From NCBI GenBank assembly GCA_947629645.1, contig CANREV010000016.1, positions 1 to 64,000 on the forward strand: DNA of 64,000 bases, given 5' to 3'. The stretch comes from an uncultured Acetatifactor sp. (GTDB lineage Bacteria > Bacillota > Clostridia > Lachnospirales > Lachnospiraceae). Shown here one piece after another: positions 15,763 through 20,534 of the stretch (position 1 is its first letter; each line of letters starts with the position of its first letter). The position numbers and the translations under genes were made by a program. Below the pieces are notes generated by a model that made no database searches, was not told the origin of the DNA, and was given only the letters and a program-made list of their open reading frames with translations.

Positions 15763-15792
15763 CGCATATCTCCCCCAGTCTCATCATAAGAT
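15763..15792 (+). promoter_or_regulatory. Sigma-E-like promoter of spoIIID
   Basis: CGCATATC (15763-15770) closely matches the B. subtilis sigma-E -35 consensus and CATAAGAT (15785-15792) matches 6 of 8 positions of its -10, with 14 bp between. The predicted start is about 22 bp before the TTG start codon of spoIIID. In B. subtilis spoIIID is transcribed by sigma-E. Assigned by eye, not tested against background. Confidence 0.55.
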
Positions 15793-15820: not shown

Positions 15821-16015
15821 TTGAAGGATTATATTGAGGAACGCGCTGTGAGCATCGCCAATTATATCATTGAAAACAATGCCACAGTGCGTCAAACGGC
15901 AAAGGCCTTTGGGGTTAGCAAGTCTACCGTACATACGGTAGTAACAAAACAGAGCGGTTCTGCTGGCTGGTGCATTGATGTGAATGACAATGTGATACGG
16001 TCAATAAAATACTAA
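15821..16015 (+). CDS. spoIIID: SpoIIID, N-terminal half (gene interrupted by recombinase element)
   Basis: The first 38 codons match the sporulation regulator SpoIIID (B. subtilis begins MHDYIKERTIKIGKYIVE; here MKDYIEERAVSIANYIIE) up to GVSKSTVH in the recognition helix of the helix-turn-helix. From codon 39 the reading frame runs into element DNA and ends after 64 residues with an unrelated tail (TVVTKQSGS...). The missing C-terminal half is at 20394-20534. SpoIIID is the mother-cell DNA-binding regulator of the sigma-E stage. As it stands the product has half a recognition helix and should not bind DNA. TTG start with AAGGGG seven bases upstream. Confidence 0.9.
   Translation: MKDYIEERAVSIANYIIENNATVRQTAKAFGVSKSTVHTVVTKQSGSAGWCIDVNDNVIRSIKY
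15924..15941. other. Left attachment site (attL) of the spoIIID element
   Basis: The 10-bp repeat ACCGTACATA occupies 15926-15935. Around it lies an 18-bp inverted repeat: CTACCGTA, central CA (15932-15933), TACGGTAG. Large serine recombinases act on short shared cores with a central two-base crossover; CA is the natural candidate. Confidence 0.75.
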
Positions 16016-16047
16016 CGGCAGGCCCATTATGAGCCTGCCGCGTTTTT
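16016..16047 (+). terminator. Rho-independent terminator just inside the element
   Basis: CGGCAGGC (16016-16023) and GCCTGCCG (16033-16040) form a perfect 8-bp stem with a 9-base loop, followed by CG and a T run (16043-16047). It starts one base after the stop of the truncated spoIIID frame and would end the transcript of the unexcised gene. Confidence 0.85.
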
Positions 16048-16064
16048 ATGCTTATAGATACTTT

Positions 16065-16943
16065 TTATTTGTTATCTTTATAGATCAGAGCAAATGCATA
16101 ATAGGTGTCGGTTTCAAAAGTAATTGTATTCTGATCAGAATCTAAATCCTTCAATACGATAGGCCTGCCATTTTCCGTTACGCTGATCATCCTGAAATCC
16201 CTGTTATCTTTCTGCAAAGCCGTTGGAATATTCAAAGTAATGCGCGCTTTACTGTCCATCTGATAAATAATCTGATCAGAAGGCAGGATATTGTATGTTC
16301 TTCCGATCACATAGTTACCGAGCACAGCTTCAAAAGAATCAAAGCACAAAGGCCCTTGTACCGCATTATAGATGCTTACCGGATAGCTGTTCTTTGCATC
16401 CGTGGTAAAATCCACCTTCTCATTGCTGTATGCGGCATACCGCTTTAATTCATCCGGCGTAGACGGCTCCCATGCTTCGGGCTTATCTTCTTCAGGTACT
16501 GAAGATTGGTCTTTGATTATGGTCGCGGGAGGATAAGAAGACCAGTGATCGCTGCCTTTTTGTTTTGACACATTCCAAATCTGCATTTTTCCGGGTTCGA
16601 TGATCTTGTATATGACTGCATCGGCATATTCGTCTACAGAAACATCTTCTATCTTTTCGCCTCTCCAGAGATCATAATCCACCGTTACGGTTTCTCCTGT
16701 ACCGCCGGACTTGTCATAGGTTATTGCAAGGGATCCGGATTCCATGGTATAGGATCTTGTATTAAAATAATCCTGTGCCGTCCCGTCTTCATAAAAGATG
16801 ACAGGGTTGTAAGGGAAGGGCCCATACCAGGCTCCCAATACATCTTCCTCCTCAGCGGCATTTGCAGTTACCGGCGTACATACTAATATGCCTGTTGCGC
16901 ATAACGCCGCTGCAATTTTTTTAAAACATCCTTTTCTTTTCAC
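16065..16943 (-). CDS. Secreted protein of unknown function (element cargo)
   Basis: 292 residues. An N-terminal signal peptide (KKIAAALCATGILVCTPVTANAA) predicts export; there is no lipobox and no other membrane segment. The mature part begins with a GAWYGPF...VIFYEDGTAQDYF segment reminiscent of small lipocalin-like or beta-rich domains that compare a measured value with a blank, but I do not recognise a family. No catalytic motif seen. GTG start at 16943 with AAGGAAGG upstream. Upstream DNA carries four short direct repeats and a TTGACA (17047-17107). Why a recombinase element carries it is unknown. Confidence 0.75.
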   Translation of the reverse strand: MKRKGCFKKIAAALCATGILVCTPVTANAAEEEDVLGAWYGPFPYNPVIFYEDGTAQDYFNTRSYTMESGSLAITYDKSGGTGETVTVDYDLWRGEKIEDVSVDEYADAVIYKIIEPGKMQIWNVSKQKGSDHWSSYPPATIIKDQSSVPEEDKPEAWEPSTPDELKRYAAYSNEKVDFTTDAKNSYPVSIYNAVQGPLCFDSFEAVLGNYVIGRTYNILPSDQIIYQMDSKARITLNIPTALQKDNRDFRMISVTENGRPIVLKDLDSDQNTITFETDTYYAFALIYKDNK

Positions 16944-17059
16944 GCATTTCGCCTTCCTTTCTGTTTTCTGCCTCTTTGTTTGCGCCGGACACCTTAAAAA
17001 TTTTTATAATGTCCGACTATTTAATATTCTCACAGACAAGCTCTGTTGTCAATGTCGAT

Positions 17060-17107
17060 TTAATCTCAAAATTTACTCTCAATTGAATCTTAAAATGTAA
17101 TCTCAAA
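17060..17107 (-). repeat. Four short direct repeats upstream of the secreted-protein gene
   Basis: Read on the minus strand, TTGAGATT-like words (TTGAGATTAC, TTAAGATTCA, TTGAGAGTAA, TTGAGATTAA) occur four times at spacings of 13, 11 and 13 bp. They end just before a TTGACA (17052-17047) that could be the -35 of the gene at 16065-16943. Such helical-phase direct repeats often bind an activator. Confidence 0.45.
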
Positions 17108-17160
17108 CCGCAGATTAGGAAAAAAATTTTTTTATAAAATACGGTCTGAAAACTTCCTCT

Positions 17161-17352
17161 ATTTATGTTCCCGCAAGGATTAGCAGAGAAAAGCGTAATG
17201 AAATCCGCAATGAAATCCGGTTGACGGCACAAAAAATTTGCAGAATATTAGATTGCTGTGATTTTGCGCAGTTTGGTTCGCCTCTGGGGAAAGCGATCGG
17301 TATTCCATTTAGGCAGCCGTCTGAACAGAATAGTATGCTGACACAGCCTTAG
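17161..17352 (+). other. Possible coding remnant inside the element
   Basis: The 638-bp stretch 16944-17581 has no convincing complete gene. One plus-strand frame from about 17161 to TAG at 17352 reads like protein (VPARISREKRNEIRNEIRL ... GSPLGKAIGIPF) and is followed by a real-looking terminator at 17411, but it has no start codon with a ribosome binding site. It may be the 3' end of a decayed gene, or chance. Confidence 0.25.
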
Positions 17353-17410
17353 AATTTTTGTGAAACCGGAGAGCATATTGCACCTGAAAATTCATCGGCA
17401 CAGCGCGAGG

Positions 17411-17450
17411 GCAGTCACAGACTTATGGAAAAGTCTGGGCTGTCTTTTTT
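17411..17450 (+). terminator. Terminator hairpin inside the element
   Basis: CAGACTT (17418-17424) and AAGTCTG (17431-17437) with a 6-base loop, extended by weaker outer pairs back to 17411, followed by six T (17445-17450). Confidence 0.65.
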
Positions 17451-17581
17451 GTGTGTTTAAAAAGATTTTCAATATATGCAGGGTAGTGAGGGCTATAAAA
17501 TCTTATAAAAAGGGTTAATAATTTCAAGTTGCTTTTCATAGAATGGACAAAGACCATGAGGGCGGGGAGGTGTTTCCCACC

Positions 17582-17794
17582 ATGAATTATTTTTCTGATG
17601 AAAAAAAACGAAAGTTGAATTACGTGATACATAATCCGAATACAGTGGAAGAAACGGCCAGGGTGTTGCTGGAGGTATTTATGCAGGCGAATACTGGGAA
17701 GGTGGAGAGAAGGTTACAAAAGTCATTGGAATCACTGCATGATGAAGTGGATCATTTTGAAAATGACGCTGGGCAAAAAGTCCGTCTCGCCTGA
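17582..17794 (+). CDS. Small protein of unknown function; candidate recombination directionality factor
   Basis: 70 residues from ATG 17582 (GGGGAGG 11 bases upstream); an ATG at 17543 would add 13 residues but has no ribosome binding site. Charged, mostly helical (EETARVLLEVFMQANTGKVERRL, KSLESLHDEVDHFEND). No family recognised. Serine recombinases usually need a small accessory protein to excise, and the C. difficile skin element encodes one (CD1234). Among the element's products this is the only small plus-strand protein without another evident role, so it is the best RDF candidate by position and size only. Confidence 0.5.
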   Translation: MNYFSDEKKRKLNYVIHNPNTVEETARVLLEVFMQANTGKVERRLQKSLESLHDEVDHFENDAGQKVRLA

Positions 17795-17796
17795 TT

Positions 17797-18231
17797 TTAC
17801 GGGATGCGCTTTTGTGAATTCTTTCCGTCTAAGATATCAAGCATCTGCCGGGCAGTAACAATGAAGGGTTCAGCAGGAAAATGTTTTAAGTTGCCAGTGA
17901 CCAGATAAGTTTCGTCCTTGCGCTTTTCCATGACTACTTCGTAGAAGGGTAAATCTTTCATGTCCGGTAAAGTCACACCGATAGCGCCAGGATTCACTAA
18001 GATCCCATATTTCCTGATTGCGGACAAGATATAGTTTATCATTTTTGGTTCTAATTTAAACTTCTTCCTGCTAAGCACTTCATGATACTCCTGCATGATC
18101 TCGCTGCTGTAGACAGGTATGATTTCTCCGCCGAACAATCGACCTATTACCTGGACTGTGGCAGCGTCAGCATGACTGGAGAGCAGGGCAGAGACAAGCA
18201 CATTCGTATCAATTACCGCGTAACAAGTCAT
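17797..18231 (-). CDS. PIN-domain toxin of a toxin-antitoxin pair
   Basis: 144 residues, TIGR00305-type PIN domain, a metal-dependent RNase fold. Acidic residues are visible in the opening CYAVIDTNVLVSALL (D8), EIMQEYHEVLSR (central Glu) and RKDETYLVTGNLKHF (late Asp). Its start overlaps the stop of the upstream antitoxin by four bases, showing translational coupling. Expected to cleave RNA when the antitoxin is lost. The target is unknown. Confidence 0.86.
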   Translation of the reverse strand: MTCYAVIDTNVLVSALLSSHADAATVQVIGRLFGGEIIPVYSSEIMQEYHEVLSRKKFKLEPKMINYILSAIRKYGILVNPGAIGVTLPDMKDLPFYEVVMEKRKDETYLVTGNLKHFPAEPFIVTARQMLDILDGKNSQKRIP

Positions 18232-18533
18232 TCCGCATTTTCCTCCCCGTATCTGGATTTATGAATTTCTTCATTTATCTCTTCTAAAGTCATTCCTTGC
18301 GGAAAATTTTCTGCCGCCTGTGCCCTGAGTGACAGAAATGCCTGCATAGCTCCCTCTCTTGTGATTTCCGGTTCGGGAGAAGCGATTTCGAAGGGAATTC
18401 TACGTTCACGTACAACGGCTCGGGCAAACACATTAATTGCCGTTGATGCAGTCATGCCGAAATCGGAACATAGAGCATCAAATTGCCTTTTTAACGTCTC
18501 GTCCATACGAACACTAAATGTTGATTGTGCCAT
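18228..18533 (-). CDS. RelB/DinJ-family antitoxin
   Basis: 101 residues. The ribbon-helix-helix N-terminus (STFSVRMDETLKRQFDALCSDFGMTASTAINVFARAVV) is typical of RelB/DinJ antitoxins, which dimerise, bind their own promoter and neutralise the toxin with the C-terminal part. ATG 18533 chosen because AGGAGG ends eight bases upstream; a GTG at 18542 would overlap the ribosome binding site. Operon partner of the PIN toxin. A RelB-type antitoxin with a PIN toxin is a mixed but known pairing. Confidence 0.86.
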   Translation of the reverse strand: MAQSTFSVRMDETLKRQFDALCSDFGMTASTAINVFARAVVRERRIPFEIASPEPEITREGAMQAFLSLRAQAAENFPQGMTLEEINEEIHKSRYGEENAE

Positions 18534-18558
18534 GTTTAGCACCTCCTATTTTCGATTT

Positions 18559-18587
18559 ATTATAAACCAATATTCACAAAAAGTAAA
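18559..18587 (-). promoter_or_regulatory. Promoter of the toxin-antitoxin operon
   Basis: Minus-strand TTTACT (18587-18582), 17-bp spacer, perfect TATAAT (18564-18559). Confidence 0.65.
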
Positions 18588-18605
18588 TAATATGCACCTG
18601 ATGTG

Positions 18606-18646
18606 TGCGATTGTTCGCATATCCTTTATGTGGATACTAATACCAA
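18606..18646 (+). promoter_or_regulatory. Recombinase upstream region: short dyad and sigma-E-like promoter candidate
   Basis: TGCGA-TTGT-TCGCA (18606-18619) is a 14-bp dyad. It overlaps GCATATC (18617-18623), identical to the -35 word before spoIIID; a partial -10 match (AATACCAA, 18639-18646) lies 15 bp on. TTGTTC-16-GATACT is a weak sigma-A alternative in the same place. Confidence 0.3.
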
Positions 18647-18736
18647 TATATTATATGTAGAAGCCTGTTGTTTTCTGACGTACAAAGTATAATTTAAACA
18701 GTAACTGAGAGATAATAATGTAACGGAGAGGTTTTT

Positions 18737-20395
18737 ATGAATATAGCCGCGTATTGCCGTGTTTCCACCGACAAAGCTGATCAACTCAATAGTCTGGAAG
18801 CACAGAAAGAATTTTTTGGAGAATATACTAAACGAACTGGCGATGAATTAGTCTGTCTCTACGCTGACGAGGGCATCTCCGGCACAAAAACTAAAAACCG
18901 CAAGGAATTTCTGCGTATGATGGCCGATGCGGAGCGTGGTCTGTTTGACATGGTGGTGGTAAAGGATATTTCCCGCTTTGCCAGAAATACGGTGGACTTG
19001 CTTCAAAATATCCGCAGGTTAAAAGCTCTCGGCATAGAAACACAATTTCTCACAGCCAATATGGCCAGCATGGGTAACAGTGAGTTTGTCCTGACTGTTT
19101 TCGGGGCATTGGCGCAGGAGGAAAGCGCCAACACCTCCAAACGTGTGAAGTTTGGCAAAAAGATTAACGCAGAAAAAGGACGCGTCCCTAACATCGTCTA
19201 TGGTTATGACAAAACCATAGGTGACTATTTCAATCTGGAGATCAACAAACAGGAAGCGGAAGTAGTCAAACAGATTTATAAGTGGTATCTGCAGGAGGGG
19301 TATGGTGCGGCTAAAATTGCAAATATGCTGAATGAAAGAGGATTAAAAACAAAGCGGAATTGCAACTTTAGCCAGAATGCGGTCTGCCGGATCCTGACCA
19401 ACGAACTCTACACCGGAAAAGTAATCAACGGAAAGCAGGAGGTTGAGGATTTTCTGACCGGAAAGCGAAAAGAGAAGGATGAAACGGAATGGATAGTCGC
19501 TGAGCGCCCTGATTTAAAAATCATAGAGCCAAAAGACTTTGAAAAAGCGCAGCAGATCCTTCATGGCAGACATGCCTCTTTTAACATGAACAGAGAGCGG
19601 CAGAGCAATAAGTATCTTTTCTCCACATTGATCCGCTGTAAGGAATGTGGCTGGTCTTTTCGCAGAACGGTGCGCACATACAAAAACACTTATGTCCGCT
19701 GGGTATGCTCGGGACATAACGGAAAGGGGGCGGATAGCTGCCCTAATGCAGTCACGGTGGATGAGGACGAGCTGATCGATGTGCTGCAGGAGTATTTTAG
19801 TCACATTCTCAGCCAGCGAAAGAAAGTGGTAAAGTATGTGGTGGATGAATTTCAGCGTGTTTACAGGGCGAAGGATGAGAATCTGGAATATGAAAAGGAA
19901 TTGAAAAGTCGGTTGAATAAGCTGACGAAGGCCAGACAGAAATATATGGATATGTATGCGGATGATCTGATCACAAGGCAGGAGTTGAATGATAAGATCG
20001 GCGGTTCCAGAAAGGAGATGGAGCGGCTGGAAAACGAATTGAAAATGGCGTCTTATCATCTGACAAAGGGAGAGCAGCTTGAAAATGTTTTAAATCGTAC
20101 CTTCAAAGAGATAGAGGACATCACAGATATTCGTGAAATGACGAATGCCCAGCTAAAACGTATCATTCAGAAGATAGAGGTGGACAAAGAGGGGAATGTG
20201 GAAATCTTCCTGCGCCTGTTTGGAGATCTGGGATTGGAAGAGACGGTCCTGATTGAGGAAAAATACGCTACAGATGCGGATATTCCGGATATTAGCAGTT
20301 TGGCAGAACCGGACGAATCGGCAAAGTGTGACTTCCGTGCGCAGGCCGATAAAAATCCTGCCCAAAACGCTCCAAATTGTCATAACCGTACATAA
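18737..20395 (+). CDS. Large serine recombinase (site-specific integrase/excisionase of the spoIIID element)
   Basis: 552 residues. Resolvase catalytic domain at the N-terminus with nucleophile Ser10 in YCRVSTDK and the conserved KDISRFARN segment near residue 77; recombinase domain about 160-275; zinc ribbon with Cys301, Cys304, Cys324 and Cys335; coiled coil about 360-460. This is the SpoIVCA/phiC31 layout. It would cut both attachment sites and join spoIIID. ATG 18737 with GGAGAGG upstream. The TAA stop (20393-20395) overlaps the right repeat, so in the excised circle the frame would instead continue 14 codons (YGSNKTERFCWLVH) to a stop in left-end DNA. Confidence 0.95.
   Translation: MNIAAYCRVSTDKADQLNSLEAQKEFFGEYTKRTGDELVCLYADEGISGTKTKNRKEFLRMMADAERGLFDMVVVKDISRFARNTVDLLQNIRRLKALGIETQFLTANMASMGNSEFVLTVFGALAQEESANTSKRVKFGKKINAEKGRVPNIVYGYDKTIGDYFNLEINKQEAEVVKQIYKWYLQEGYGAAKIANMLNERGLKTKRNCNFSQNAVCRILTNELYTGKVINGKQEVEDFLTGKRKEKDETEWIVAERPDLKIIEPKDFEKAQQILHGRHASFNMNRERQSNKYLFSTLIRCKECGWSFRRTVRTYKNTYVRWVCSGHNGKGADSCPNAVTVDEDELIDVLQEYFSHILSQRKKVVKYVVDEFQRVYRAKDENLEYEKELKSRLNKLTKARQKYMDMYADDLITRQELNDKIGGSRKEMERLENELKMASYHLTKGEQLENVLNRTFKEIEDITDIREMTNAQLKRIIQKIEVDKEGNVEIFLRLFGDLGLEETVLIEEKYATDADIPDISSLAEPDESAKCDFRAQADKNPAQNAPNCHNRT
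20385..20394. other. Right attachment site (attR) of the spoIIID element
   Basis: ACCGTACATA, identical to 15926-15935. Unlike the left site it has no extended symmetry here (AACCGTA-CA-TAAAGAT). Joining the sites gives an excised-circle junction ACCGTA-CA-TACGGT that is symmetric over 14 bp. Confidence 0.75.
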
Positions 20396-20534
20396 AGATG
20401 TAACCGACAGGCTCGTGCAGATCAATCCCACTCTGGCGAAACAGGCGAGACAGGTGTTGGATGTCAATAAATCTGAACGCCATATCAGGGGAGGCATGGC
20501 TACAAAAGAAAAATATCTGCACATACATAATTGA
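20385..20534 (+). CDS. spoIIID: SpoIIID, C-terminal half (gene interrupted by recombinase element)
   Basis: Reading on from the shared codons Thr-Val-His, this frame gives KDVTDRLVQINPTLAKQ and then the family hallmark SERHIRGGMATKEKY, ending after HIHN (TGA 20532-20534). B. subtilis SpoIIID has KDLTERLPEINPDLAN and RHLRGGEATKLKY at the same place. There is no ribosome binding site or start of its own, so it is not expected to be made unless joined to the 5' half at 15821. Joined product: 84 residues. No stop, frameshift or gap is present in either half, which argues against a long-dead pseudogene. Confidence 0.9.
   Translation, partial: TVHKDVTDRLVQINPTLAKQARQVLDVNKSERHIRGGMATKEKYLHIHN

Follow-up and report, generated by a model that had tools for sequence, protein, structure and literature searches.

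Split sporulation genes named in the cited literature are sigK, spoVFB, spoVR, spsM, gerE, kamA and yabG (PMC5595907, PMC6957869, PMC10747680). The skin element of C. difficile is described as having a large serine recombinase within sigK and its own recombination directionality factor (RDF), CD1234, behind a SigE promoter; its excision is reported to depend on SpoIIID, which activates the CD1234 gene (PMC5025042). In the skin of B. subtilis, the recombinase gene spoIVCA is reported to be activated by SigE with SpoIIID (PMC517825, PMC6957869). The gin element in gerE of B. cereus is given as 28.6 kb long, with three recombinases, a 9-bp repeat and the helper GirX (PMC5595907). SP-beta in spsM, phi3T in kamA and yin in yabG are further described cases; the RDF is experimental for SP-beta and predicted for yin, which was reported from one strain (PMC6957869, PMC10747680). 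Here we describe a 4,459-bp serine-recombinase element that splits spoIIID itself, in a 64,000-nucleotide stretch of DNA (the window: positions 1 to 64,000 of contig CANREV010000016.1, assembly GCA_947629645.1) from an uncultured Acetatifactor sp. Searches of an open-access library, covering few subscription papers and no preprints, listed no account of an interrupted spoIIID; in the text of a large survey of large serine recombinases (PMC10083194), the word "sporulation" occurs once, in the title of a reference.

The two halves of spoIIID, the ends of the element and the two genes on which the argument depends lie in the window as follows.

15766..15792, plus strand: predicted SigE-type promoter of spoIIID, with ATA at 15766-15768, N16, and CATAAGAT at 15785-15792 (layout in aligned upstream regions)
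15821..15934, plus strand: 5' half of spoIIID, codons 1-38 (PF12116, Pfam, NCBIfam)
15926..15935, no strand: core of attL, formed by the left direct repeat ACCGTACATA; the CA of TACATA, centre of the attP symmetry, is the predicted crossover point
15935..15964, no strand: left inner arm, one half of attP (alignment of complete loci, symmetry test)
17518..17544, plus strand: SigE-like promoter of the small gene, with ATA at 17518-17520, N16, and CATAGAAT at 17537-17544 (p = 0.01 against 100 shuffles)
17582..17794, plus strand: 70-aa small protein, candidate RDF (linkage, iterative search)
18737..20395, plus strand: large serine recombinase, 552 aa, its stop codon overlapping the right repeat (Pfam, PHROGs, motif)
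20364..20393, no strand: right inner arm, the other half of attP (alignment of complete loci, symmetry test)
20385..20394, no strand: right direct repeat ACCGTACATA, core of attR (sequence)
20394..20534, plus strand: 3' half of spoIIID, codons 39-84 and stop (PF12116, Pfam, NCBIfam)

The halves are parted by 4,459 bp between 10-bp direct repeats, and joining 15934 to 20394 gives 255 nt, that is 84 codons and a stop, with the frame kept. The initial annotation of this DNA had described the 5' half, the 4,459-bp separation, the bounding repeat, the serine recombinase and the in-frame 84-codon join, and all of these were located as it had placed them; its 3' half likewise comprises codons 39-84, but codon 39 begins at 20394 and not at 20395. 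The 5' half begins with TTG, which is also the start in many relatives. A search of the 3.15-Mb genome (99.5% complete, 92 contigs) with PF12116 recovered the two pieces, both on contig C16, and no second SpoIIID, and so no intact copy, was found by PF12116 anywhere else in the genome. Pfam and NCBIfam assign the pieces to the two ends of SpoIIID. Because both window halves score below the cut-off of the NCBIfam SpoIIID model, whole-gene annotation models may miss or mislabel spoIIID in carrier genomes.

The split arrangement is beyond chance, because the repeat lies at the homologous break of both halves, the frame is intact and the same break recurs in other genomes. As in skin-type elements, a sporulation gene is split such that precise removal restores its frame, a short direct repeat stands at both ends with attL and attR, and a site-specific recombinase with its domains and catalytic motif lies inside. 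The 552-aa recombinase has the Pfam domains Resolvase, Recombinase and zinc-ribbon, which class it as a large serine recombinase, matches the phrog_95 integrase and carries a YCRVSTD motif. No promoter was resolved upstream of its gene.

Together the inner arms are an inverted repeat with the CA of TACATA at its centre. In the window 16 of its 24 positions pair, a score matched by none of 2000 shuffles. The joined host site, attB, has no such symmetry (best 10 of 24, p ~0.5). The two ends of the element together make up an attP whose inverted repeat is conserved. Four viral contigs (L173-L176, of which three are alike) hold a 70-71% identical integrase beside fused, uncut arms, together with a relative of the small protein. 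Half of the ten proteins taken from L173 and L176 match PHROG families, including a head maturation protease.

The same insertion point was found in many other genomes. In an independent survey that started from the recombinase and took its 80 nearest relatives in public genomes, 76 adjoin a detached spoIIID 3' half (75 by tblastn, and in L096 the beginning of the half by eye); three of the others (L114, L124, L127) continue into other sequence, and L167 runs out at the end of its contig. By record title, the carriers include Blautia, Schaedlerella, Extibacter, Flavonifractor, Agathobaculum and [Ruminococcus] torques. Among 250 genomes surveyed in the family, SpoIIID was matched in 155, above the cut-off in 149. 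Twenty-five of them, picked for several or partial SpoIIID matches, were inspected closely, so that the resulting counts are lower bounds: at least 13 hold both halves without an intact gene (6 of these on one contig), 3 hold a single half, 5 an intact gene and an extra half, and 4 are contig-end cuts or weak matches. The genus survey covered 61 genomes including that of the window, with a SpoIIID match in 51; both halves without an intact copy were present in 6, and only a 5' half running into the left arm of the element in 2 more. In the two surveys together, a serine recombinase adjoins 20 of the 22 orphan 3' halves with enough upstream sequence. These elements are a large mobile family targeting spoIIID, by record title in Lachnospiraceae and Oscillospiraceae.

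Two candidates, L040 (G115) and L058 (G048), were rejected as split because they read through as an intact gene to the contig end. G303, one genus genome of uncertain class, was excluded from the split tally, since both of its contigs stop at the spoIIID junction and contain no element sequence. A break of this kind in contigs C63 and C67 (L211, L212) might arise if the reads were a mixture of the joined and split alleles.

Other recombinase lineages occupy the same place in spoIIID. Relatives with 46-47% identity lie there in G024 and G055, and three distant serine recombinases in an array adjoin the 3' half in G171, G132 and G076 (L204, L215, L217), where the break is about one codon further on. 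The arrays are an independent kind of element at spoIIID and resemble gin, as described, more than the window element does. In G106 (L205-L208), about 75 kb lies between the halves, and this element encodes a TraG-like protein as well as a surface protein of 2,115 aa that has thioester and T-Q ester-bond domains. Its reading as a classical prophage was rejected, as one of ten proteins had a terminase-like PHROG match, which is TraG-like in Pfam, and no other structural family was matched; the element looks more like a conjugative island.

At 22 loci with both halves, elements of 3.5-17.7 kb are inserted at the same codon, and the CAT of codon 38 lies inside every shared core. The joined frame is open in all 22, counted from the aligned first codon, which is not a start in L137 and L192. 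The widely recurring parts of related elements, in complete elements or within 5 kb upstream of the 3' half, are the recombinase and the small protein only.

By iterative search, the small protein was present in 69 of the 90 split loci. Of the 22 complete elements, 21 have it, the exception being L193, whose recombinase is 47% identical. Many of the misses have little upstream sequence; L098, L111, L149 and L159 are among the few with at least 5 kb in which none was found. Its start was set at 17582 because the longer open reading frame (ORF) start at 17543 overlaps the -10 element. Five residues are invariant across 56 sequences. It has no Pfam, NCBIfam or PHROG family, and a protein search gave 28 matches, the window's own included, none of them named. 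The predicted structure is one long helix after an extended start (mean predicted local distance difference test score, pLDDT, 78.8; predicted template modelling score, pTM, 0.43). We propose, by linkage, that it is the RDF of the element.

The predicted promoters of the small gene and spoIIID in the window share the ATA-N16-CATA layout, and the mapped SigE promoter of C. difficile spoIIID is given as ATA-N16-CATATATA, with the same layout as that of spoIIID in the window (PMC3789822). A CATACAAT-like -10 is aligned in 96 of 99 spoIIID upstream regions, and each base of ATA stands 19 nt upstream in 93-96% of these. A matrix built from the spoIIID upstream regions was applied to the sequence in front of the small gene in 63 distinct versions, with 100 shuffles of each, and the match reached p <= 0.05 in 37 of them (median 0.03; window 0.01). 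The control result of 40/40 was drawn from the training set of the matrix and shows that the method runs, not its accuracy. Beyond the clade of the window, CATA and the spacing are mostly retained and the match is weaker. Directly after the -10 of the small gene (17545-17552 in the window), TGGACAA is present in 38 of the 63 regions against 0.58 expected in shuffles, the regions being related and not independent. We take this motif to resemble a SpoIIID site, and newly made SpoIIID may switch the small gene off again.

We consider it likely that the element in codon 38 of the only spoIIID found is precisely excised in the mother cell by its own recombinase and a helper, which SigE probably switches on, and that SpoIIID is made only after this excision. 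Upon SigE activation, the broken spoIIID and the small protein would each be transcribed from the predicted ATA-N16-CATA promoters. Under the influence of the small protein, the recombinase would switch from integrating (attP x attB) to excising (attL x attR), a step suggested by linkage. The 84-codon spoIIID would then be rebuilt by a crossover, predicted from symmetry to fall on the CA of the common TACATA, and the forespore chromosome would, by analogy with skin, retain the element and transmit it through the spore. We infer the mother-cell timing with the backing of the SigE-like promoter before the candidate directionality factor. SpoIIID cannot be the trigger here because spoIIID itself is split, and therefore the signal must come earlier, from SigE or another source; the simplest substitute is action of SigE on the small gene. 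The initial annotation had proposed that excision of the element gates SpoIIID, and this proposal is supported by our analysis, with excision and its mother-cell timing as predicted steps. Of the outcomes that it had named as refuting, two were looked for and not found: a second intact spoIIID in the genome, and a decayed half beside a recombinase.

The locus shares with the described C. difficile skin a large serine recombinase in a mother-cell regulator gene and a small element-encoded protein, here a candidate RDF with a SigE-like promoter. In the window's genome, sigK is one uninterrupted frame of 211 aa, so that the element is not a skin in the strict sense of an insertion in sigK, and it seems to lack a pro-sequence, as in C. 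difficile. The C. difficile skin, in contrast, targets sigK and depends on SpoIIID, whereas here spoIIID is split. Because sigK is uninterrupted and seemingly without a pro-sequence, excision from spoIIID may supply the timing that skin gives elsewhere. As described for the B. subtilis skin, a regulator gene would be rebuilt by mother-cell excision (PMC517825, PMC6957869), but the SigE and SpoIIID trigger of spoIVCA is not available here. The window element is, like gin as described, a non-phage element in the gene of a small DNA-binding regulator, with a short repeat, a serine recombinase and a helper (here a candidate); it is, however, 4,459 bp long with one recombinase in spoIIID, against 28.6 kb and three recombinases in the late gene gerE. 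With SP-beta, phi3T and yin it has in common an integrase with an RDF (here a candidate) in a split sporulation gene, whereas their described targets differ and include no regulator at this point of the mother-cell cascade. We read the locus, on balance, as a developmental excision system of the skin type that acts one step above the known sigK skins and is probably triggered by SigE.

In the known skin switches the target is sigK and the trigger runs via SpoIIID, and a split spoIIID implies a different wiring with an earlier start signal. Since insertions at this site occur in Lachnospiraceae and Oscillospiraceae, with cultured isolates such as Schaedlerella arabinosiphila DSM 106076 (L132) and Extibacter muris DSM 28560 (L161) among the carriers, the idea can soon be tested. 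The family is, further, a source of serine integrases that come with natural attB and attP sites and a candidate RDF. We give about even chances to a wider picture, in which spoIIID would serve the Clostridia as a recurrent DNA-level checkpoint: islands and reduced elements akin to phages, with several unrelated recombinase lineages, would have converged on codons 38-40, SigE-fired excision via a helper would gate the mother-cell programme, and SpoIIID may shut the helper off.

It is unlikely that spoIIID is merely a favoured landing site, where insertion blocks sporulation and the halves look intact since the insertions are young. This explanation would fit frequent movement: the distances between recombinases and between adjacent 3' halves are unrelated (rho 0.017, p 0.37, 74 recombinases), so that the elements move between hosts and re-insert in spoIIID, and four pairs with near-identical recombinases beside strongly diverged halves look like recent transfer. 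The median pairwise ratio of nonsynonymous to synonymous substitution rates (dN/dS) is also somewhat higher in split 3' halves (0.146; 652 pairs past the divergence filter) than in intact genes (0.089; 422 pairs). Decay, however, was not seen in any relative where the recombinase adjoins. After removal of 12 duplicate loci (one contig under two ids), 90 distinct detached 3' halves show no stop over 43 codons and no shift in the alignment, and degeneration is apparent only in L201, which is one of the 90; its first codons are altered, no recombinase adjoins it and an intact spoIIID lies about 8 kb away. A weak recombinase-like stretch precedes that intact copy, and L201 may be another repaired case of the kind described below. 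That a detached 3' half is untranslatable alone was dropped as evidence, since 40 of the 90, including that of the window, do have a start codon downstream of the last in-frame stop, against 50 that lack one.

Also against a mere landing site, three genomes without a full recombinase at the locus, G255, G305 and G022 (L185-L187), retain the old 5' half and hold an intact spoIIID downstream of it, with remnants of the element in the interval. In L187 a recombinase relic lies between the two, and the bases preceding the two copies are identical over 56 bp in L185 and 44 bp in L186. The three appear to be repairs by duplication of the promoter and 5' half, the pattern that selection for a working spoIIID would leave. 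In addition, the small gene with its SigE-like promoter survives turnover of the cargo, and 18 of 2701 pairs are compatible with long co-inheritance, among them the window and L094 (recombinase dS 1.36; 3' half dN 0.041, dS 1.13).

Somewhat less probable again is excision at random or under stress, with only the cells that lost the element completing sporulation. Related integrases in phage contigs with uncut attP indicate that the system can serve a phage life cycle, and the match to the SigE-like promoter is weak in several clades; yet the small gene of the window has the promoter layout of spoIIID, and random loss would strip the element from the spore line, whereas the element is common. 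An assembly error or chimera is hardly credible: the genome is in 92 contigs, but the halves and the element lie on one contig, and the same layout is present in the one-contig genome G232 and in Schaedlerella arabinosiphila DSM 106076 (L132).

Several observations weigh against developmental excision of the element. Of the 63 relatives, only 37 have a promoter match at p <= 0.05. In the two exceptions among the 22 orphan 3' halves, G170 and G228, no recombinase adjoins; G170 retains the right arm, and G228 has an intact spoIIID. The dN/dS of the split set exceeds the value for intact genes, and its median is 0.237 for the 3' halves of the 18 pairs compatible with long co-inheritance. As the elements move from host to host, the intact halves could partly reflect recent insertion. 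The role of the small protein is proposed from linkage, and some serine recombinases of the TnpX/TndX type excise without an RDF. Across the genus, the only Spo0A matches lack the receiver domain, and sporulation of the source organism is therefore unproven.

The rest of the element is cargo, and its G+C content as a whole is 43% against 49% in the rest of the window. Three cargo genes lie on the minus strand.

16065..16943, minus strand: 292-aa protein with a signal-peptide-like start by eye (ORF list)
17797..18231, minus strand: PIN-domain toxin of a toxin-antitoxin pair (Pfam, NCBIfam)
18228..18542, minus strand: RelB/DinJ-family antitoxin (Pfam, NCBIfam)

Neither Pfam nor NCBIfam matched the 292-aa protein. 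A search of related elements gave no match to it or to the PIN protein, and a 30% match to RelB in 3 loci. The RelB/PIN pair (17797-18542) might, as a speculation, punish random loss of the element while being harmless to the dying mother cell. No phage structural domain was found among the ORFs of the window element with Pfam and NCBIfam, or with PHROGs on two ORFs only, and the element was not classed as a prophage.

The genome encodes SigE, SigK, SpoIVA and SpoIVB. It has two Spo0A proteins, each with the DNA-binding end only and no receiver match (C19:22101-22472, L230; C17:65105-65506, L231). Across the genus, matches cover only the DNA-binding end in 30 of 31 genomes, with none matched in the other, and full-length Spo0A is present in 11 of 12 further genomes of the family, of which ten have spoIIID split or as a half and two have it intact. 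The genus may enter sporulation without phosphorylated Spo0A. The gene spo0A is often located just downstream of spoIVB; at that position in this genome, on contig C48, a short ORF (L242:481-729) resembles by eye a fragment of a serine recombinase.

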